Source: Arenicella sp.
GTDB taxonomy: Bacteria > Pseudomonadota > Gammaproteobacteria > Arenicellales > Arenicellaceae
DNA: 35,831 nucleotides
Direction of reading: 5' to 3'
Assembly: GCA_023301745.1 (NCBI GenBank)
Contig: JALZVW010000120.1
Span: forward strand, 1-35,831
Of the stretch, positions 23,286-35,659 are shown piece after piece. The position numbers were made by a program, and so were the translations under genes. The notes beneath the pieces were generated by a model that did no database searches, was not told where the DNA came from, and saw nothing but the letters and a program-made list of their open reading frames with translations. Position 1 is the stretch's first letter. Each line of letters opens with the position of its first letter.

Positions 23286-23452
23286 CCGCGGGTGACGATC
23301 TGCATCAAACGACGATAGTTACCTATGGAGCAAAGAAGTCAGTTAAGCTGAGTGAAATTAGTGGAGATTTCGAGCTTAAAATAACGTTTACGTTTACAGT
23401 GCTGAGTCTTAACTGGTTAAAGTGAGCGAATCTATATAAAATAAGGCGCAAC

Positions 23453-24124
23453 ATGCCTGATAATCATTATCAAAATAAAGAGCAGTTCGTCGCAATCCTC
23501 AAAGAAGGGGCCACAATCGCGTGCCACGAATGTGACTTGCAGATTACACTTCCGAACCTTGGGAATGTAAAGACAGTCTTGTGCCCGAGGTGAGACTATG
23601 TCATAACTCGGTTTCATAAGTTTGCCTTAGCGCGAGGCTTTTCATATGCGCTGGCCGCGATTACATTTTGCTTGATCGCTAATCTCTACCCTTTTTTAAC
23701 AGTCAGTACAGCCTTAAACGCAAACACAATTTCTCTGATTGGGTCGGTATCGGTATTAATTGAAATAGATGAACATCTTTTTGCATTTATCTTTTTAAGT
23801 ATGATTTTAATATTTCCATTACTTATTTTAATACTGCTTTTATATATGTTGAGCGCCATCTATTTTTCAAAACCCTTCCCATTATTGATACAAGCCTACA
23901 AAGCTATCTTTCTGATAAAGGAATGGGCAATGGCCGAAGTGTTCTTGATTTCTGCCTTTATCAGCATGGTGAAAGTGCTAAGCCTGGCTGATCTAGAATT
24001 AGAAATTGGGTTTTGGTCTTATATTTTATTTGCCATCACCTTATCCGTCGCAATCAACTCTATTGATAAATTACAAAGCTGGCGTACCGTCTACAAGCTT
24101 GTCACCAATAAGGCGGCCGTCTAA
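23453..24124 (+). pseudogene. pqiA: PqiA family protein (first subunit/half) interrupted by in-frame TGA at 23591..23593
   Basis: Continuous frame: MPDNHYQNKEQFVAILKEGATIACHECDLQITLPNLGNVKTVLCPR-TGA-DYVITRFHKFALARGFSYALAAITFCLIANLYPFLTVS...NKAAV-TAA; the track shows only the 3' part (23672..24124). Confidence 0.82.
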
Positions 24125-24762
24125 TGCCTGAGTATCAACATTTTTCGCCCGTCTTAATTGCAAAAAACCAATCGATTACGAGTTGCCCTGTTTGTAATGG
24201 TTTGTCTCCCAATTCTGAAAGTCATTGTGCGGCATGCGATAGCGCGCTCCATTCGAGAATGCCAGCAAGCTTACAGCGCACAATCGCATTATTGATTACG
24301 GCTTGCTTCTTATACGTTCCGGCCAATGTCTTTAATATATTGCGGACAGAAGGAGTTGAAGGGTCGATGGAAAAAACCATCGTCGGCAGTATCATCATGT
24401 TTATGGACCAAGGTAGTTACGTCTTAGCGCTGATTGTTTTTACCGCCAGTATTATTGTGCCTACTGGCAAAATAGCCGCGTTGTCTTGGTTATGCATATG
24501 TGCCATTACGCCTCGGTGGAGCCAACCATTAAGTAATACGCGTTTATATCGACTAACTGAGTTGTTTGGCCGTTGGTCTATGATTGACGTGTTCGTCGTT
24601 GCTCTTTTATCGAGCTTAGTACAACTTGATGGACTCATGAGTATTACTCCTGGCGCAGCCGTAATGGCATTCGCTGGGGTGGTTATAGCAACAATGTTAG
24701 CAACAATGTCATTCGACACTCGCTTAATCTGGGATCTATGGGAGAAAAATAATGAGCGATGA
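24124..24762 (+). CDS. pqiA: paraquat-inducible protein A family (second subunit)
   Basis: 'SCPVCNGLSPNSESHCAACDSALHSRMPASLQRTIALLITACFLYVPANVFNIL...LYRLTELFGRWSMIDVFVVALLSSLVQL'; start overlaps the previous stop (TAATG). Confidence 0.92.
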   Translation: MPEYQHFSPVLIAKNQSITSCPVCNGLSPNSESHCAACDSALHSRMPASLQRTIALLITACFLYVPANVFNILRTEGVEGSMEKTIVGSIIMFMDQGSYVLALIVFTASIIVPTGKIAALSWLCICAITPRWSQPLSNTRLYRLTELFGRWSMIDVFVVALLSSLVQLDGLMSITPGAAVMAFAGVVIATMLATMSFDTRLIWDLWEKNNER

Positions 24763-26419
24763 GAACAACTTTGAATCGGCGGGTACGCTTAACACCGCAA
24801 AAGTAGAAGAACATAAGGCGCCCAAAATCTCAACGGTTTGGTTGGTGCCACTATTCGCTGTCTTAATCGGCGCAGCAATGCTTATTAATCACTACTTTAA
24901 CCAAGGCCCCAAAGTTCAAATATTTTTCAAGAATGCAGATAACTTGGTGGCCGGTAAAACCAGAATTAAATACCTAAGTATCGACATCGGCAAAGTAACG
25001 TCGCTTGCCTTAACCGACGATGACACCAGTGTTGTTGCCACCGCTCAACTTGATCAAAGCGTCTCGCATCTACTGGTTGAAGATTCTCAGTTCTGGGTTG
25101 TCAAACCGCGCATTGGTGCCAGTGGCATTTCAGGCCTAGACACCCTCCTCTCGGGTGCTTACCTTGGGCTAATTCCAGGCTATAGTGATACTAAAGTAAG
25201 CTCATTTGTTGGTGCCGATGGAATTCCTCCGGCCGGCAGTGAAGTCGCTGGATGCCGAATAACATTGCGGTCAAATAGCAACCAATTATTGTCAGAGGGC
25301 ACGTCAGTCTATTATCGCGGCTTCCGCGCGGGTAGCATAGAAAAGGTTGAACTTAACCTTGACGACGATGCGACCTATTATCAGGTCTTTATTGAATCTC
25401 CGTACAACGAATTAGTGTCAACTAATACACGTTTCTGGGACGTCAGTGGCGTGACGTTCGAGTCTTCGACAAAAGGCTTTATGCTGCACGCGAACTCAAT
25501 CGAGTCTATTCTCTCTGGCAGCATTACATTTGGCTTGCCCGATGGTGTAGAAGAAGGTGATATCCCCGCTGATGGCGAGCTGTACACTCTCTTCCGTAAC
25601 AGCGATGACGCCTACGCAAGAACCTATTCTGAGGGTTTGAATGTTGCGGCGAGCTTTGATTCATCGCTACGAGGCTTAGCACTGGATGCGCCGGTAGAGT
25701 TTCGCGGATTGGAGATGGGCCGTGTGATCGAGCTTGATAAAGAGCGTTCTGTGACCGCCGACGACGGTTTATCTCGCGCCATAATTAGATTAGAACCGGG
25801 TCGAATTGGGCTTGAAGATTCAGAAACCGGTGTCGCAGAATTAAAAAAGAAAATCGAAGCTTGGGTTGGCAACGGCCTTAACGCGACATTGACAACCGGC
25901 AACCTACTAACTGGGAAGAAATTCGTGGAGCTCAATTTTCCAGCTCAGTTACAAGGCAGAACCCTAAGTACTAAAACTAAGGCCGCCTATACTGACGGGT
26001 TACTGTCGATCCCCACCTACTCCAGCGGGCTTGATTCAATAAAAGATAAGGTGTTGGGCATGTTCAACCGCGCTGAAACACTGCCACTGAGTGACCTGGT
26101 AACCGATACAAGCAAATTGGTTAAAAACTTAGACAGCGCATCAATCAAATTAGAGCAATTGCTCGCGGCTCCTGCGACCGCAGAGCTACCGGCAAACATC
26201 AATAAATCTCTATCTCAATTTGAAGAAACTCTGGCCGGTTTTTCTCCGGACCAGCCTCTGTACCAAGACCTTGAGCAAACAGTTTTTATTCTTAATCAGT
26301 CGCTGTCTAATTTAGATCTATTATTGAAAAAATTAAAAGACAAACCAAATGCGCTTATTTTTAATAGCAAAAACAAACCAGGCATCGCACCAAAAGCGAC
26401 CAAAACGGATGGTGGCTAA
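24752..26419 (+). CDS. pqiB: PqiB/MlaD-family MCE protein
   Basis: 555 aa; N-terminal TM and three MCE repeats ('VQIFFKNADNLVAGKTRIKYLSIDIGKV', 'ITLRSNSNQLLSEGTSVYYRGFRAGSIEKV', 'FDSSLRGLALDAPVEFRGLEMGRV'). Confidence 0.95.
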   Translation: MSDENNFESAGTLNTAKVEEHKAPKISTVWLVPLFAVLIGAAMLINHYFNQGPKVQIFFKNADNLVAGKTRIKYLSIDIGKVTSLALTDDDTSVVATAQLDQSVSHLLVEDSQFWVVKPRIGASGISGLDTLLSGAYLGLIPGYSDTKVSSFVGADGIPPAGSEVAGCRITLRSNSNQLLSEGTSVYYRGFRAGSIEKVELNLDDDATYYQVFIESPYNELVSTNTRFWDVSGVTFESSTKGFMLHANSIESILSGSITFGLPDGVEEGDIPADGELYTLFRNSDDAYARTYSEGLNVAASFDSSLRGLALDAPVEFRGLEMGRVIELDKERSVTADDGLSRAIIRLEPGRIGLEDSETGVAELKKKIEAWVGNGLNATLTTGNLLTGKKFVELNFPAQLQGRTLSTKTKAAYTDGLLSIPTYSSGLDSIKDKVLGMFNRAETLPLSDLVTDTSKLVKNLDSASIKLEQLLAAPATAELPANINKSLSQFEETLAGFSPDQPLYQDLEQTVFILNQSLSNLDLLLKKLKDKPNALIFNSKNKPGIAPKATKTDGG

Positions 26420-26420
26420 T

Positions 26421-27011
26421 ATGTCTAATCGACCGATAAAGTGCCTCACGTTCCTTATCATATCTCTGACGATGGCTTGTGCGAGCACACCTCAAACCAG
26501 CAATTATTATTTAATCGAGAGCCCCGCAGCAGACTCAGTCATTAACTCTGAACACAAAATAGTTCTACACCCTATCGAGTTAAGTGACTATTTAAAATCG
26601 AGCAACTTGCACGTTAAAGACAGTTCTGGGCAAGTTATCTATAGCGCTACTGACTTATGGGCGGAGCAGCCGAGCAAGGTGTTATGGCGTGCGATAGAAC
26701 TCAGCCTTGAAAACCAAACAGGCCATCATGTGCTAGCAAGCCATGAAACCCCAGATAGCTGCGCGCAAATCAAAATACGCATCAACCAACTGTCACCCAC
26801 CTCGGCCGGTAAAGTAGTCAGCGCTGGTCGTTGGTTTATTAGCACTGAAGGCAGCACATTGGAAACACGCGAATTTTCATTCACTGGCCATATCGACACC
26901 GATGGTTACGCGGCTTCAAACCAGGTGATTGCTGGCCAACTCCACCAATTAGCCTCTGAACTCGAAGAACAAATAGAATACCTAGGCTTGTGTCAAAACA
27001 GTGCACGATAA
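26421..27011 (+). CDS. pqiC: PqiC/YmbA-family lipoprotein
   Basis: ORF opens at 26349 but ATG 26421 directly follows the pqiB stop; lipobox 'SLTMACAS'; 'NYYLIESP...IVLHPIELSDYLKSSNLHV'. Confidence 0.88.
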   Translation: MSNRPIKCLTFLIISLTMACASTPQTSNYYLIESPAADSVINSEHKIVLHPIELSDYLKSSNLHVKDSSGQVIYSATDLWAEQPSKVLWRAIELSLENQTGHHVLASHETPDSCAQIKIRINQLSPTSAGKVVSAGRWFISTEGSTLETREFSFTGHIDTDGYAASNQVIAGQLHQLASELEEQIEYLGLCQNSAR

Positions 27012-27137: not shown

Positions 27138-30131
27138 ATGGTTAAGCTAAACTCTAGCGCAGTAAAAATTAGGTACATCGCATCATTTTGTCTCGCGGCG
27201 TTAATATCAAACGCAAGTGTGTTGCACGCCGCAAGCGACAACGAAAACGCATTTGATACGGAAAAACTGGCTGACTACCGAGCCTCAGTAATACAAATGA
27301 AAGAACAATCGCGAGGCCCGTTTAAACGTCTCAGGTGGTTCTGCGTCGACGGCACAGTTCTGCCACCTAAAAGTGGCGCATGCCGAGACCACGGCGGCGG
27401 TCGCCAGCATGGTCAATGGAGTGACGCGACAATGGAACTACGTGATCACGGTTTCATTATTGGCAATGTTCTTGCGGCAACCAAGCCGATAGAATTAGCC
27501 AATAATTATTCGCCCGACGGCGAACTCCAAGCAATTTTGCTAGAACAATTTTTAATCGATGCCGATGACGGCTGGATCCTTAGAAAGGCACGCTCGTATC
27601 GAGGCGCTTTTCAGATTGAAAACGAACAAGAGATGGGCACCAGAATACTCCAAGCCCTAAGCTCTAAGAGCATTCCGATTGAGCGCCGCTATTTATTAAC
27701 CCTTGAAGCGTTTAAACGCTTGCCGTCAACTTCTGGCGATCAATCACTCGTTAATAAAGTACGTACCAGTGCCAGCAATTTGAATAATGCCGACAAAGGG
27801 TTTAGCAAGTTGCGCAATAGCATTCACGGAAAATTGAGCGCAGACGACGCGGCACGAGTGCGGGCTTACGCCACGAGCAACAAACAGTTACCGGGTTACG
27901 CCAGCATGCTCGAGCTGGCTAACGATATAGACCAGATATTCTCATCAAGTAGCGTCGAGACAACCTTATCTAATTTAGCTAAGTTTGCCCCGGCCGAGTT
28001 TCAAGGCCACCTTGAACAATGGCAATCGAGCGATAGCCAAGATCAAAAATTTAGCGCTTTAGCCGATGCCCTGTTTTGGTTGAGGGAGTATGTAACTCAA
28101 AATAGTCAAACGCGTTTTGAGGGCTTCGGGCTGGTCGCACAGCTGGAGCAAGCTGCATTTTCAAGTGGTAGCTTGCTACGTGAGTCTTACCAGCAAAAGC
28201 CGCTGAATGGTAGCGCAGGTACTTCACGACAGAAGATACTATCGTCATTAATTAGTAGCCACAAAATGCTGTACGGCGTCGGTCTATTAACCAAGGCCGA
28301 ATTTTCTCAAGCTAATGAATGGGTAGAAGCCACTCTCGGCCAAATAGATAACAATGGCCGCGCAGAAACGCCGCTAACGCTAGCCCGTTATCAATCGCTG
28401 CTACGCAACTTAGAACGCATTCCAGTTTGGTCAGAGCGACGCGTGCAATTCTTTTTTGGCGCTCAGGTAAAACGCTTTTCAGCCATCGAGCCGCTTACCC
28501 ATACCTATGTACCCGATCGCTTACGGGGCTCACCATTGCTCACCTACACCGAGCTTCTTAAAACTCTTACTGCAGATGCCGCTACCCTGTCTGGCGTGCA
28601 GCACAACTTCTTTGACGAACCGATCAGCTACGGTTTTAGAGTGTTAAATTCAGGTGTCGCACGCGGCGAACTCCATACTCCAGAAACATTAGCAGCGCTT
28701 AAACTTAAACCAGAAGAACTGGTATTGGTGGTGCCCGAAACACTCGCGGATCTACCCGCGGTCACAGGAATACTTACCGCGTTTGAAGGAAACCAGTTGT
28801 CGCACGTGCAGCTCCTTGCTCGAAATTTGGGCGTTCCCAACGTCGTCGTGACCCAAGACCTGATTAATCAACTTCCCAAATATTATGGCAAACGAATCGA
28901 AATTTTGGCCAGCAGCAACGGCGTTGTATCAGTAATCCTGCTAGCCGATGAGCAACAGCAAAGAAGCAGTGACACTCAGCCAGTGCCCGCGAACCAAGTG
29001 CCGGATTTTCTGATTAAAGTTAACCAAGCTAAGCTTGATCTGACGCAAACAAAATCGATTTCGCTCACAAACCTAGACGCAAACGCGTCGGGGGTAACCG
29101 TGGGCCCTAAAGCCGCTAAGGTCGCGCAACTCAGCAAGCAGTTTAAAGGCAAAGTTCCTCCAGGAATCGCAATTCCTTTTGGAAGCTTTAGAAAATTATT
29201 TGACGACAATTTACACCCAAGTGGTGTGACCATGTTTGACTGGCTTAAAGACCAATACTCTCGAATGAGTTCTTTAAAAGGCGCTGAGTTGAGCGATTTT
29301 CAGAACAAGTTTCTTAATGAGTTATCAGCCTGGTTTTTGACGGTCGAACTCGCCCCTGAGTTCATTGCTGACTTGCGAGAAAAAATGCATTCGGAATTCG
29401 GCGATGATGGTAGCTATGGCGTTTTTGTCCGCAGCGATACTAACGTAGAAGACCTACCTGGATTTACCGGAGCAGGATTAAACCTAACCGTTCCTCATGT
29501 CGTTGGTTTTGATGCGGTTGTCGAATCAATTCGTAAAGTGTGGGCCTCGCCTTTTAGCAAGCGCGCCTTTGGTTGGCGTCAAGCAAGAATGGATAAACCT
29601 GAACATGTATACACCGCCATCTTGTTACATAAGAGTGTCGAGTCAGATAAATCAGGTGTTCTGGTAACCACTGATATTTTCGATGCCCAAGAAGGCAAAC
29701 TGTCCGTGGTATTAAATGAAGGGGTCGCGGGTGGTGTTGATGGTCTATCGGCCGAGAGCGTTAGAATTGATCGAGCTACCGCCGAGATCGACCTGCTGGC
29801 CAGCGCCACGGCTGACGTTAAACGAATATTGTTAGAACAAGGCGGCTCACAATTGGTTCCCGCAAGCGGCGCCGAGCGGCAACTCAATGACAAAAACGTA
29901 CGGGACCTGATCGAGTTCAGCGAGCACGTTGGAGGCTGGTTTAGTGATGACAAAAATGCCATCGCCGATGTTGAATTTGGCTTTAAGAATGACGAATTTG
30001 TGCTATTTCAAATAAGGCCATTGGTTGAATCGTCTGTCGGGCGCTCGGACCCTCGGCTAGTTGAGATGGACCGAGCCTTCAATGAACATGCATCGACATT
30101 GGTCAACCTTAGTCTGGCGCCAGAAAATTAA
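27138..30131 (+). CDS. secreted PEP/pyruvate-binding-domain (glucan water dikinase-like) protein
   Basis: 997 aa; signal peptide 'YIASFCLAALISNASVLHA'; phosphohistidine-type 'GNQLSHVQLLARNLGVPNVVV' (His codon 28803..28805) precedes ATP-grasp 'VFVRSDTNVEDLPGFTGAGLNLTV', 'IRKVWASPFSKRAFGWRQ', 'IADVEFGFKNDEFVLFQIRPLVES'. Confidence 0.88.
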   Translation: MVKLNSSAVKIRYIASFCLAALISNASVLHAASDNENAFDTEKLADYRASVIQMKEQSRGPFKRLRWFCVDGTVLPPKSGACRDHGGGRQHGQWSDATMELRDHGFIIGNVLAATKPIELANNYSPDGELQAILLEQFLIDADDGWILRKARSYRGAFQIENEQEMGTRILQALSSKSIPIERRYLLTLEAFKRLPSTSGDQSLVNKVRTSASNLNNADKGFSKLRNSIHGKLSADDAARVRAYATSNKQLPGYASMLELANDIDQIFSSSSVETTLSNLAKFAPAEFQGHLEQWQSSDSQDQKFSALADALFWLREYVTQNSQTRFEGFGLVAQLEQAAFSSGSLLRESYQQKPLNGSAGTSRQKILSSLISSHKMLYGVGLLTKAEFSQANEWVEATLGQIDNNGRAETPLTLARYQSLLRNLERIPVWSERRVQFFFGAQVKRFSAIEPLTHTYVPDRLRGSPLLTYTELLKTLTADAATLSGVQHNFFDEPISYGFRVLNSGVARGELHTPETLAALKLKPEELVLVVPETLADLPAVTGILTAFEGNQLSHVQLLARNLGVPNVVVTQDLINQLPKYYGKRIEILASSNGVVSVILLADEQQQRSSDTQPVPANQVPDFLIKVNQAKLDLTQTKSISLTNLDANASGVTVGPKAAKVAQLSKQFKGKVPPGIAIPFGSFRKLFDDNLHPSGVTMFDWLKDQYSRMSSLKGAELSDFQNKFLNELSAWFLTVELAPEFIADLREKMHSEFGDDGSYGVFVRSDTNVEDLPGFTGAGLNLTVPHVVGFDAVVESIRKVWASPFSKRAFGWRQARMDKPEHVYTAILLHKSVESDKSGVLVTTDIFDAQEGKLSVVLNEGVAGGVDGLSAESVRIDRATAEIDLLASATADVKRILLEQGGSQLVPASGAERQLNDKNVRDLIEFSEHVGGWFSDDKNAIADVEFGFKNDEFVLFQIRPLVESSVGRSDPRLVEMDRAFNEHASTLVNLSLAPEN

Positions 30132-30180
30132 GTCCTCGATGCAATCCCTAAATTTAACTCTTCAAAAAGGCCGAAGCAAT

Positions 30181-31470
30181 ATGTCACTAAATGTTATTAG
30201 AGCGATGATTAACACAGGCGTTGTAATCAGCCTGCTAATGAGTAGCAATGTATCGCTAGCCTACCCGATTGATGGTTATCCCGAAACGGGTATTCGTCGC
30301 CTCGAGTATTACCGCTTAAGTGATAGCGGTGAAATTAAAGGTAAGTCGTTATACGAAGGCGCCAAACGCTTATCAGATGACATTCGCCCACGCCTGATCA
30401 ACAAAAAAACCGCTGCTAAATTACCACAATTAAATAAAGCTGTGAGCGCTCGGCTAGCACCGTTAATTCCTGAGCAGGCGCACCGTTATAGTATTTCGGT
30501 GCTTGACTTAAGCAACCCAGATACGCCTATTTATGCTGAGCACAATGGTGATTATCGCAGCAATGTCGGCAGCGTCGGGAAATTACTCGTCGCGGTTGCC
30601 TTGTTCTCAAAGTTACAAGAGCTTTATCCAGACGACGTGGAAAAACGGCGCCAGATACTCAAAAACACAGTTGTAACCGCCGACGAATTCGTCAATAGCG
30701 ATCACCATAAGGTAGGGTTTTGGGATGTCGAAAAACGCCAGCTAACGCGGCACTCTTTACATGTCGGCGATCAAGGAAATCTCTACGAATATTTGGATTG
30801 GGCACTTTCGCCCAGCTCAAACGCGGCCGCGGCAATGCTCCAGCGAGAGTTGATATTACTCAGCCATTTTGGCAAAGCCTACCCTGTCAATGACGAGATT
30901 GCTCAATCATATCTCGAACAAACCTCTAAGACAGACCTTGGCACACTTTTTCTGGAGGCCATGGTGGCTCCACTAAAAGCCGCAGGCATTGACACCGAAA
31001 AGCTACGCCAAGGGAGCTTTTTCACCCGCACCGGAAAGAATAGAGTGTTAGGCACTAATAGCTATGGGAACCCACGGGAACTAGTCAAGCTACTCTATTT
31101 AATGGAAACAGGAAAACTGGTAGATGAGTTCTCGAGCACCGAGCTCAAGCGCCTTATCTATTTAACCGAAAGGCGAATTCGCTATGCATCACACCCAAAC
31201 TTAAATCCACATTCTGTGTATTTCAAGTCGGGCTCTCTCTACAGTTGCCAAGCCGAAGAAGGTTTCACCTGTGGTAAATATAAGGGTAATAAACGGAACT
31301 TGTTGGCGTCAGTCGCCATCGTAGAGTCACAAGAAGATGGTAAAAATTACCATTATCTGGTCGTGGTTCAATCCAATGTGTTGAAAATAAATTCGGCGGT
31401 TGCTCATCAAACAATAGCGGCACGGATACACAAACTGATTAAGTCACTGCATCAAGATTCAGCAGAATGA
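30181..31470 (+). CDS. secreted class A beta-lactamase-fold serine hydrolase
   Basis: ORF opens at 30061; ATG 30181 gives a signal peptide; SxxK 'SVGK', 'SSN', 'KSG' motifs. Confidence 0.85.
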   Translation: MSLNVIRAMINTGVVISLLMSSNVSLAYPIDGYPETGIRRLEYYRLSDSGEIKGKSLYEGAKRLSDDIRPRLINKKTAAKLPQLNKAVSARLAPLIPEQAHRYSISVLDLSNPDTPIYAEHNGDYRSNVGSVGKLLVAVALFSKLQELYPDDVEKRRQILKNTVVTADEFVNSDHHKVGFWDVEKRQLTRHSLHVGDQGNLYEYLDWALSPSSNAAAAMLQRELILLSHFGKAYPVNDEIAQSYLEQTSKTDLGTLFLEAMVAPLKAAGIDTEKLRQGSFFTRTGKNRVLGTNSYGNPRELVKLLYLMETGKLVDEFSSTELKRLIYLTERRIRYASHPNLNPHSVYFKSGSLYSCQAEEGFTCGKYKGNKRNLLASVAIVESQEDGKNYHYLVVVQSNVLKINSAVAHQTIAARIHKLIKSLHQDSAE

Positions 31471-32420
31471 TACTCTTCAACTATTCGATCTAAGTACTTA
31501 ATCACTTGCTCTAAAACAGCGCTGCCGTTTGGCATATTAGACAGCGCAACAGCGATGTATTTATGCCCATTTTCTGATTCAATAATAGCGCTGTCGGAAT
31601 GATAGGTGCGCCAAGTGCCTGATTTTCGAAAAATTTCAGCGGTGGGATTTTCACTTTTCAAGCCTTTGACGAACTTATGTTCGATCGCCGAATCGGACAA
31701 AATATCTTTGATTAACGGGCAATAATCTGGATCGGTTAACTCATTGCGTTGCAACATATAATAAAAGCGCGCGACCTGAATACCGGTTGCCGCATGACTG
31801 AAGTTGGTAAGAGGGTCTCGCTTCCACGCAGGCTTCTTGCCATAAGGCTTGCCAACCCAGAGCCCTCCTCCGGCGTTTCTATCATAAAATTGATAACGTT
31901 CAGACTGTAGAATTTCGGCTATCCGTTCGGCCCCCACTAGCTCATAGAGATAGGTCGCATCACGATTCGATGAGTGGCGTATCATATTAACCAGCGCTGT
32001 ATCAATTTCAGGCGTTAAGCTTAAGTTATCTTGATGCACCTCTTCAAACACAGCAAGCATGATCGCAAGCTTCGGTAAACTGGCAGCATAAAAAGAAGTT
32101 CCGCCATTAGCATGTGCAAGCTTAGGACTATTTAGGTCCGTAATATCGACCAAGGTAATTGACAGCTTATTGCCCTTAATATAGTTCGCCAACTTATTTG
32201 CTGCCACCGATTCATTGAGCATATTCTGAAGCGTGTTATCTGCCTCAGCGGGGAACTCGCCCAATGATTTAAGGGAAGTCACCCCAGATAAATTACTCGG
32301 TGCAGCGTTTGAAGAACTCTGTTGAGCGAGTGCTAACGGTGGCTGCAAGAATGCCAACGCCGCGAAAAAAACAATAGAGAACGACCTAACGGCTCGCCGC
32401 ATGAAGAAAACAATATTCAT
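31452..32420 (-). CDS. secreted class A beta-lactamase-fold serine hydrolase
   Basis: 322 aa; signal peptide; SxxK 'SLPK', 'HSSNRD', 'FRKSGTWRTYHSDSAII'; overlaps the convergent gene by 19 bp. Confidence 0.88.
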   Translation of the reverse strand: MNIVFFMRRAVRSFSIVFFAALAFLQPPLALAQQSSSNAAPSNLSGVTSLKSLGEFPAEADNTLQNMLNESVAANKLANYIKGNKLSITLVDITDLNSPKLAHANGGTSFYAASLPKLAIMLAVFEEVHQDNLSLTPEIDTALVNMIRHSSNRDATYLYELVGAERIAEILQSERYQFYDRNAGGGLWVGKPYGKKPAWKRDPLTNFSHAATGIQVARFYYMLQRNELTDPDYCPLIKDILSDSAIEHKFVKGLKSENPTAEIFRKSGTWRTYHSDSAIIESENGHKYIAVALSNMPNGSAVLEQVIKYLDRIVEEYHSAES

Positions 32421-32435
32421 AGTATTTTTATTTAA

Positions 32436-34067
32436 TTACGTTGTTTGCTTCAAGGTGAATTTATTTTCAGTACTAAGCCCTGAGCTATCTCTGGCTATCA
32501 ATTTTACCTCAAGGTCGCTATGACGTTCTGGAACATGGCCGATAAATAACAGATCAGGCTTACTAATAAACTTCAACCAGCCTGGTAGATCATTGCCATC
32601 GCTCAAGGTGGCATCAAACTCAAGATTGTCACTGGGGTCAGCAGGTACAAAGGTGTCAGTCGGCACACGGAAATTCAACTCCCGCCCCGGCGTTACGCTA
32701 ACCATGTCAAACGGTTGGTTTAGTTTAGGCGCTTCATGCGTTTGGGTGTCTAAACGAACTTGATATTCAACCGCGACTTTACGCGCAAAAATCACCCACA
32801 CTACGCCTAGTGCCCCGCAGACAAGCGCCAGCTCTTTGATGCCCCAGCCCAACCAATGCAAGGCAATGTAAATAAGGCCAGCTTGGATTAGGTCGCCCAT
32901 TCTCCAAAACAAGGTATCTATCGCTGTTTTGCCCTCAAATTTTTCTTGGTGAGTGACGGGCAAGAATAGAGTCTGACGAACCGTGTTTGTAATTGAATAA
33001 TCCAAACAATTATCAATCGTCTTTACCACGTAAATTAGGGTAAATATGGGGAAAAAACCACCCAAGCTATAAATCACGGTGATCACCACCGGCATAATCA
33101 TAATCGCCACACTCATCCCAAATGTGATAAGAATTCGACTAACAAAAAACATTTGGAAAAACAAAGTGATCGCAGTCACCCAAAAAGCAAAGTTGGCATA
33201 GACCGCCCCGATATAACGCTCTCGCTCATCTAGGTTCACCAGACCAAGCTCATTGACCTTAATCAGCAAGGACTCGGCAAATAGATATTCGCCGGTACTG
33301 TTTATGATATTCAACAACAGCGCATAAATGGCAATTAGAATCATAAACTTGGAGTTCAGAACAACGCTCACACTGCCCAATAGACTCTTGTTCTTGGGTT
33401 TATGCATATCGCAATCAACACACCTAGATTCATTTGGAACTAGCTTACGCGACGCATAAGGCAATACGGCGGTGACACCAATAACCAATGATGCCAAATA
33501 CAAACCTGAACCAAGCCCCATCATGCTGATGACATCACCCGCAATTTTAGAACCAATCAACCCACCCAGAGAGGCACCTATCAAAATCACAGGAAATATA
33601 CGTTTGCCACTTTTTACATTAAAGGAGCCGGTGGTAAACACCCAGAACTGCGACACCATCATCACGCCATAAATCGATACCCAAACATAGTATGGGTAAC
33701 CAATCGCAACATTCATGTTGTAAAGCAAGGCAAAGCCAAAGCCCATGGCCGAGAACATTAATGCCAGCGACATAACCAGCTTTTCACGCGAGCAGCGTTG
33801 AAACATTCGGCTGTAAATCGGCATAAACAAGAGCAACACTAGTGCAGCAACCCCTGTAGCGTAGGCTTTTGCGTCCGCTGAGCCAGACGATATAAGAAGC
33901 GGCTCACGTATCGTTTTAAAAATATAATACGAAATCACAATCAAACACGCGTATATAAAGTAGATCGCAATAGACCAACCCTCGCCGGCACGAACCTTAG
34001 TGAACAGGCTGATAAACCGTTCTAAACTATTAAGTTTTGGAGTGACTATATTGCTTGTTTGATTCAT
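32436..34067 (-). CDS. NTP/NDP exchange transporter-like (ADP,ATP carrier/Tlc-type) membrane protein with C-terminal cadherin/dystroglycan-like domain
   Basis: 543 aa; 'SYYIFKTIREPLLISSGSADAKAYATGVAALVLLLFMPIYSRM', 'TAIDTLFWRMGDLIQAGLIYIAL'; C-terminal 'LNFRVPTDTFVPADPSDNLEFDATLSDGNDLPGWLKFISKPDLLFIGHVPERHSDLEVKLIARDSSGLSTENKFTLKQT' matches the CADG pattern. Confidence 0.8.
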   Translation of the reverse strand: MNQTSNIVTPKLNSLERFISLFTKVRAGEGWSIAIYFIYACLIVISYYIFKTIREPLLISSGSADAKAYATGVAALVLLLFMPIYSRMFQRCSREKLVMSLALMFSAMGFGFALLYNMNVAIGYPYYVWVSIYGVMMVSQFWVFTTGSFNVKSGKRIFPVILIGASLGGLIGSKIAGDVISMMGLGSGLYLASLVIGVTAVLPYASRKLVPNESRCVDCDMHKPKNKSLLGSVSVVLNSKFMILIAIYALLLNIINSTGEYLFAESLLIKVNELGLVNLDERERYIGAVYANFAFWVTAITLFFQMFFVSRILITFGMSVAIMIMPVVITVIYSLGGFFPIFTLIYVVKTIDNCLDYSITNTVRQTLFLPVTHQEKFEGKTAIDTLFWRMGDLIQAGLIYIALHWLGWGIKELALVCGALGVVWVIFARKVAVEYQVRLDTQTHEAPKLNQPFDMVSVTPGRELNFRVPTDTFVPADPSDNLEFDATLSDGNDLPGWLKFISKPDLLFIGHVPERHSDLEVKLIARDSSGLSTENKFTLKQTT

Positions 34068-35167: not shown

Positions 35168-35659
35168 TTAAAAACCTTGTTGGTAGGTTAGCCAGTTATT
35201 GTCACGTTTAGATTTTGCCTTAGTAAATGAAATATCACTTTTTTTGACATCTCTTTCTCCAAGCTTTTCTTTTGTATAAAGATACAATTTATCGTCTCTG
35301 ATAGTGAAGGCTTGGGGGTCAGAAACAATCAGTTTGTTGTTTGCGATTGAATACGCGCAATAGCCACCATATTGCGGTGAGAATTTTTCTGGGTTGTCTA
35401 GAAATCGATCTCGATTTTCGGCAGAAGAAAAATACCAAGTAACGTTATTATATTCACAAGTATGATCAGTATTTCCTTTAACAGCCCGTTCTTGGTCAAA
35501 ATACGCAACCGGATCATAACCGTCAATAGCGACACCAGCCACATTTGTCGATACCCGAGCAGGCTTATCAACTGGACTAAAATTTTTCGGCGTTTCAGCC
35601 GCAAATAAAGGCAGTGACAACAGGATTACTAGTGAAACCAAATGTTTAGCGATTTTCAT
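35168..35659 (-). CDS. YHS domain-containing secreted protein
   Basis: Signal peptide; 'VAIDGYDPVAYFDQERAVKGNTDHTCEYNNVTWYFSSAENRDRFLDNPEKFSPQYGGYCAYSI'. Confidence 0.92.
   Translation of the reverse strand: MKIAKHLVSLVILLSLPLFAAETPKNFSPVDKPARVSTNVAGVAIDGYDPVAYFDQERAVKGNTDHTCEYNNVTWYFSSAENRDRFLDNPEKFSPQYGGYCAYSIANNKLIVSDPQAFTIRDDKLYLYTKEKLGERDVKKSDISFTKAKSKRDNNWLTYQQGF

Follow-up and report, generated by a model that had tools for sequence, protein, structure and literature searches.

A conserved four-gene module in Arenicella that may couple ATP export to a secreted dikinase

Four neighbouring genes of the gammaproteobacterium Arenicella sp. (GenBank assembly GCA_023301745.1, contig JALZVW010000120.1, positions 1 to 35,831 of the forward strand; this whole stretch of 35,831 nucleotides is termed the window) encode a putative secreted dikinase (DIK), two putative secreted serine hydrolases (SH1 and SH2) and a carrier of the ATP/ADP translocase family (NTT). 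By sequence comparison, the four genes are a conserved module whose association goes far beyond chance. We propose, with a probability of roughly 0.6, that their products work together in ATP-driven phosphorylation outside the cytoplasm, with NTT exporting the ATP. Export of ATP would best explain the data because a secreted enzyme that retains its ATP site is repeatedly linked to an NTT, and because the same carriers are found with other secreted kinases.

Conservation of the module

A sequence-only reading of this DNA had placed a dikinase, two serine hydrolases and an NTT-like carrier in four open reading frames, and all four are present where it had put them. DIK (27138..30131, plus strand, 997 amino acids) is followed by SH1 (30181..31470, plus) after a gap of 49 nt; on the other strand, 15 nt separate NTT (32436..34067, minus, 543 amino acids) from SH2 (31452..32420, minus). 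The two transcription units are convergent, and their 3' ends overlap by 19 nt (31452-31470).

A scan of public genome contigs yielded 336 relatives of DIK, and the 80 loci retained from these, a set biased to close relatives, come from Gamma- and Zetaproteobacteria, Desulfobacterota, Myxococcota, Nitrospirota and others. When 99 relatives were searched with DIK and then with NTT, the two genes were found close together in many genomes. Just four families recur widely among the loci annotated around DIK, namely DIK itself, SH1, SH2 and NTT. PqiABC, a YHS-domain protein and an SDF symporter were considered as further members of the module and rejected, since none of them recurs widely. Six-frame profile searches of loci with at least 6 kb on both sides of DIK detected SH1 in 37, SH2 in 36 and NTT in 31 of 40 loci (some genomes being represented twice); among the 32 loci of the contig scan, the three genes occur in 30, 29 and 24. 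All four genes are found in 41 loci, in 16 different arrangements. The pairing of one ATP-related protein with one hydrolase in each operon, which the sequence-only reading had pointed out, therefore holds in the window and breaks down elsewhere. The association of dikinase and carrier, on whose presence in relatives that reading depended, is retained in the neighbourhood comparison. Because the gene set stays together though its order changes, a joint function is strongly indicated.

The linkage can also be viewed from the side of the carrier. A survey with PF03219 found members in 15 of 114 Gammaproteobacteria drawn across the class, three of the 15 being canonical parasite-type carriers; in nine of the 12 with a non-canonical NTT, the carrier gene is flush with SH1, SH2 or DIK. 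Whole-genome searches were made in 12 DIK genomes picked as having no NTT beside DIK, a short locus or DIK near a contig end, and an NTT is present in 11 of them. Within the window's genus DIK is found in the window's genome and in one of 17 others. As it is this rare, the gene has probably been gained and lost often. A search of PHROGs gave no match.

The dikinase

DIK has Pfam matches to the mobile (phospho-His) domain of phosphoenolpyruvate (PEP) utilizers (2.7e-5) and, beyond it, to a C-terminal PPDK_N ATP-binding domain (1.3e-27). At the amino end is a predicted signal peptide (27138..27236, plus strand; about residues 1-33, with the motif VLHA/AS), called from the sequence and a crude rule; export signals of the window reading frames and of their homologues were all judged by eye and by this rule. 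The proposal that the dikinase is exported gains strength from signal-peptide-like N-termini in 70 of 75 homologues. There follow a mostly helical region (27258..28592, plus; residues 41-485), the codon of the histidine that is presumably phosphorylated, H556 (28803..28805, plus; in the motif LSHVQLLAR, inside the PF00391 match), and the ATP-binding domain (29055..30032, plus; residues 640-965 approximately). In an alignment of 57 DIK homologues H556 is invariant, as are the ATP-site residues K658, R765, E946, Q958 and R960. An AlphaFold model built with this alignment has a predicted local distance difference test score (pLDDT) of 88 and a predicted template modelling score of 0.88, and a Foldseek search matched its ATP domain to rifampin phosphotransferase (5hv1, 8e-14) and to PEP synthase. 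A dikinase of the PEP synthase/PPDK type is recognised by an ATP-binding domain with its catalytic residues and by a phospho-histidine, and DIK has both.

How does DIK compare with known dikinases? DIK shares its ATP-binding and phospho-His domains with alpha-glucan, water dikinase (GWD), PEP synthase, PPDK and rifampin phosphotransferase, and the order of the two, with the His domain ahead of a C-terminal ATP domain, is that of plant GWD and not that of PEP synthase. Unlike the GWD and PPDK types, DIK is predicted to be secreted, shows no PEP/pyruvate-binding barrel (PF02896, no match at E<=1) and no detectable starch-binding domain, and carries a new helical N-terminal region. It does not qualify as a GWD, since GWD1_pHisD reaches 13 bits against a cut-off of 27 and no CBM is matched. 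The N-terminal region (about 450 amino acids) could be assigned to no family, and no convincing match for its fold was found in the PDB. Ten of its residues are invariant in the alignment (W67, C69, D71, C82, G88, Q90, R155, G156, R209 and H230), among them two cysteines and the conserved W, D, R and H; the region is a candidate acceptor site. The CotH spore-coat kinase and the eukaryotic secretory kinases of the Fam20C type act outside the cytosol, as is proposed for DIK, but DIK does not have a protein-kinase fold, and CotH is not encoded in the window.

Second, diverged DIK copies were observed apart from SH1, SH2 and NTT (L063:439-3405, L067:3399-6572 and L070:8012-11092). One of these adjoins a PtsP-like PEP-utilising protein with a GAF domain; the neighbours of the three loci are mixed and give no consistent hint of a substrate.

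The serine hydrolases

SH1 is predicted to have a class A beta-lactamase-like fold, and both hydrolases match Pfam Beta-lactamase2 (SH1 5e-5, SH2 1.5e-18). The catalytic motifs are intact. In SH1 these are SVGK, SSN and KSG, with S131, K134, S212, N214 and K349-S350-G351 invariant in 42 homologues; in SH2 they are SLPK, SSN and KSG, with S114, K117, S150, N152 and K266-S267-G268 invariant in 38. Neither protein is a class A beta-lactamase proper: the NCBIfam model bla_class_A gives SH2 20.6 bits against a cut-off of 200 and does not match SH1. The SxxK, SxN and KSG motifs are shared with PBP-A and the class A beta-lactamase-like DD-peptidases, whose member TLL2115 is the best PDB match of SH2, a weak one at 3e-4. 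What sets SH1 and SH2 apart from these DD-peptidases is that two diverged copies are kept together with DIK. Both window proteins carry signal peptides, and the rule is positive for 46 of 58 SH1 and 49 of 50 SH2 homologues; several of the SH1 homologues that it rejects have a clear hydrophobic leader ahead of the conserved YPLDGY start.

The carrier

The window NTT scores 28.4 bits with Pfam TLC (cut-off 21, E 9.3e-7). Searched against the PDB, its family profile has significant matches to the two solved NTTs only (9j3n, 6.8e-38; 9j3j, 2.8e-29), and these span nearly the whole profile. By profile it belongs to the same family (PF03219) as Rickettsia Tlc, Chlamydia Npt1 and plastid NTT1. Also of the same broad group are the NTTs of free-living bacteria, including NTT-HEAT(-cNBD) fusions (Major et al. 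2017, PMC5381601), and HEAT-type NTTs are likewise found beside DIK. Window-type NTTs differ from Tlc, Npt1 and NTT1 in that they reside in free-living hosts, form separate clades and are linked to secreted kinases, and export is the direction proposed for them. A He_PIG-like tail (residues 456-540; 32448..32702, minus strand; Pfam He_PIG 1.9e-4, just under the cut-off) ends the window protein and is seen in some of its relatives (L080, L083 and L085); L083, from Pseudomonas marincola, is 65% identical to the window NTT.

Arabidopsis NTT1 depends on four charged residues, K155, E245, E385 and K527; a single offset lands all four on K, E, E and K in 9j3j. The corresponding residues of the window NTT are T71, S131, E260 and D392, so that E385 alone is kept. 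In other carriers linked to DIK, the E245, E385 and K527 positions are often occupied by D, E and K, and the positions of K155, E245 and K527 vary among the aligned carriers. The acid aligned with E385 is E or D in every canonical carrier and in every one linked to DIK, CotH, HipA, PI3/4K or Omp85, and is E in just five of 22 unlinked NTT paralogs. The window NTT also keeps R389, and has K51 where Tlc, Npt1 and NTT1 have the canonical R; both R389 and K51 are retained in the kinase-linked carriers.

A carrier tree of 99 sequences places the window NTT within a clade of 24, with a support of 99. Sequences adjacent to DIK had partly been picked for that neighbour; those linked to CotH, HipA, PI3/4K and Omp85 had not been picked by neighbour. 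The members of the 24-sequence clade adjoin DIK, CotH, a HipA fusion, a PI3/4K-like kinase or an Omp85 fusion, the single exception being an NTT whose genome has DIK elsewhere. DIK-linked carriers also occur in a second large clade, in a HEAT-type clade and in a small fourth clade, and, given the starred branches of the tree, the DIK label must have changed seven times or more. This spread over several NTT clades suggests that DIK either gained an NTT partner on several occasions or exchanged one NTT for another.

Other secreted kinases beside NTTs

The NTTs that stand apart from DIK have as neighbours further secreted proteins with kinase domains. In Mariprofundus, the NTT neighbour has a signal peptide, bacterial SH3 repeats (SH3_3) and a CotH kinase domain, the latter matched at 1.9e-44 to 7.4e-53 in three proteins. 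CotH lies next door in nine of a wider sample of 20 NTT loci (nearly all of them from Mariprofundus), and the DIK/SH cassette in six. The Parahaliea neighbour is a metallophosphatase with a signal peptide, fused to a HipA_2-like kinase (6.9e-7), and in one genome of the window's own genus (G016) it is a secreted PI3/4-kinase-like protein (4.6e-5). A search of 369 Gammaproteobacteria for the kinase of locus L080 gave no match. In Granulosicoccus, where DIK shares 73% identity with that of the window, the protein next to an NTT is secreted and joins a kinase-like motif (GDWDRH..N, PEDRDQAF) to an Omp85 barrel; the kinase call is at the motif level, and a profile comparison with the PI3/4K-like protein is weak (E 0.005). 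Fusions of a kinase-like domain to an Omp85 barrel, with no Pfam kinase match, are encoded at L211:2652-5255, L212:10258-12846, L242 and L243. Relatives of the Granulosicoccus protein turned up in three of 99 genomes, each of which has DIK and an NTT-type carrier as well.

As the clade of the window NTT adjoins secreted kinases of unrelated families, ATP would be their shared denominator. The earlier suggestion that the carrier supplies ATP to the dikinase thus finds support in comparison, in that relatives of the carrier stand beside secreted kinases unrelated to DIK.

Two further associations were noted. A secreted protein of unassigned family with QQDRIGNIDY and NDND motifs (L095:4929-7410, L156:6445-8915 and L064:1-2158) forms a pair with a calcineurin-like phosphatase, also secreted, next to DIK or NTT; the protein was considered as a kinase and rejected, since the likeness is one of motif only and its PDB matches are chance-like and in the wrong region. 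In a few loci, a dCache-Ser/Thr kinase of about 710 amino acids (L064:7162-9303 and relatives) adjoins HEAT-type NTTs near DIK.

Proposed mechanism and alternatives

NTT would export ATP over the inner membrane, probably against ADP or against AMP plus phosphate. Periplasmic DIK would bind this ATP, phosphorylate its own His556 with the beta-phosphate and release AMP and phosphate. The phosphoryl group would then be handed to an acceptor of the envelope or surface, such as a hydroxyl of a glycan, of a peptidoglycan part or of a small molecule, held by the N-terminal region of DIK. SH1 and SH2, as acyl-serine hydrolases or transferases, would act upon that same envelope material. AMP and phosphate are the products that a dikinase releases, so it is plausible that the carrier swaps ATP for AMP, or for ADP plus phosphate; such an exchange could explain why its binding site is altered. 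The presence of two hydrolases resembling penicillin-binding proteins prompts the guess that the acceptor is an envelope glycan or a peptidoglycan-linked hydroxyl. Supplying ATP to extracytoplasmic kinases would be the general role of the window NTT's clade.

Several observations weigh against this proposal. Three of the four essential NTT1 charged residues are changed in the window carrier, and its substrate could differ. Some DIK copies stand alone, as described above, and one of the 12 DIK genomes searched whole, a draft, gave no NTT match. The kinase identity of the Omp85-fused domain is weakened by a structure model with a pLDDT of 39 and an empty PDB search. Lastly, a separate NTT-like clade (L079, which is G000:C52:48-1331, and L036-L060) is common in the window's genus and order, with one copy in the window's own genome; it has no kinase neighbours and has mostly lost the E385-type acid. 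Its members often adjoin alpha/beta-hydrolase or aldo/keto reductase genes. The generic NTT-like paralogs of the genus adjoin genes for hydrolases, regulators and oxidoreductases instead of kinases, and were for this reason rejected as support.

Might the module be real and the carrier move something else? It could take up the phosphorylated product of the dikinase, or carry NAD or another nucleotide, and the secreted kinases would then obtain ATP another way. The residue changes just mentioned favour this, as does the report of NTT-family members with other substrates, such as PamNTT4, a carrier of NAD (Major et al. 2017, PMC5381601). Yet the clade is common to unrelated kinase families, whose products should differ while ATP is common to all, and the E385-equivalent acid is kept in the kinase-linked carriers and mostly lost in the unlinked paralogs; we regard a different substrate as unlikely, though a serious contender.

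Salvage is a much less probable alternative. Here the carrier would import scarce extracellular nucleotides, and the secreted enzymes would act in the periplasm on nucleotides or on compounds linked to them; characterised parasite NTTs do import ATP or nucleotides (PMC5381601). A dikinase and protein-kinase-like enzymes use up ATP rather than salvage it, and no nucleotidase or nucleoside transporter recurs among the annotated neighbours of the modules. Slightly more doubtful still is an island for the inactivation of drugs or xenobiotics, in which the dikinase, like rifampin phosphotransferase, would phosphorylate an antibiotic and the hydrolases would serve as beta-lactamases. Rifampin phosphotransferase is indeed the closest solved relative of the DIK ATP domain, and both hydrolases have the class A beta-lactamase-like fold, but the first likeness is limited to that domain, with the domain order reversed, and the second falls far short of the class A cut-off for SH2. 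The contigs that bear the modules, moreover, belong to many environmental lineages, no mobile or resistance genes recur beside the modules, and a plasmid search with DIK matched its ATP domain only (about 30% of the query), no record covering most of the protein. That the genes are chance neighbours, or neighbours kept by recent common descent alone, has a negligible probability: some loci do come from related genomes and the 80 of 336 loci kept favour close relatives, but the counts, with several phyla, 16 arrangements, several NTT lineages and a class-wide sample in which linkage persists, refute it.

Flanking genes

Directly upstream of the module is a lipid-transport operon of the PqiA-PqiB-PqiC type (24124-27011, plus strand), which is not kept beside DIK elsewhere. 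In the first pqiA-like reading frame (23426-24124, plus), an in-frame TGA at 23591-23593 takes the place of an expected zinc-ribbon cysteine (CPR*DY). Selenocysteine was considered for this codon and rejected; because the genome lacks selA and relatives have no stop there, a point mutation or a sequencing error is the likelier origin. On the other side, a YHS-domain protein with a signal peptide is encoded at 35168-35659 (minus), and a 30% identical homologue in Granulosicoccus (L081:5723-6262) is flush with SH2, with no NTT between.

Significance

The periplasm is usually assumed to be without ATP. In the eukaryotic endoplasmic reticulum and Golgi lumen, ATP carriers feed lumenal kinases; the logic proposed here is the same, a carrier serving kinases beyond the membrane, but the carrier families differ and the compartment is the bacterial periplasm. 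According to a review (PMC7432876), it is not known by what route ATP gets from the cytoplasm to the bacterial periplasm. Many free-living bacteria possess NTTs, among them HEAT and cNBD fusions, and Major et al. 2017 (PMC5381601) leave the role of these carriers open; in the part of that paper that was available, a link to secreted kinases is not named. No paper on a secreted dikinase with these partners was found in a search that covered neither most subscription journals nor preprints. Each part comes from a known family; the coupling of ATP export to secreted kinases in free-living bacteria appears to be undescribed.

A broader idea, to which we give about even odds, is that NTT clades of free-living Gram-negatives export ATP and that each locus couples this ATP to a different secreted kinase: the dikinase with its two hydrolases, CotH, the metallophosphatase-HipA fusion, the PI3/4K-like protein or the Omp85-fused kinase-like protein. 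If true, this would account for the NTT genes of many free-living bacteria and identify how ATP gets into the periplasm. Through the conserved pairing of NTTs and secreted kinases, both questions, the role of the carriers and the origin of periplasmic ATP, become directly testable in culturable hosts. Envelope chemistry powered by exported ATP would, if the idea holds, extend to bacteria a principle otherwise met in the eukaryotic secretory pathway, and secreted dikinases, a class not yet characterised, would have a function to look for.

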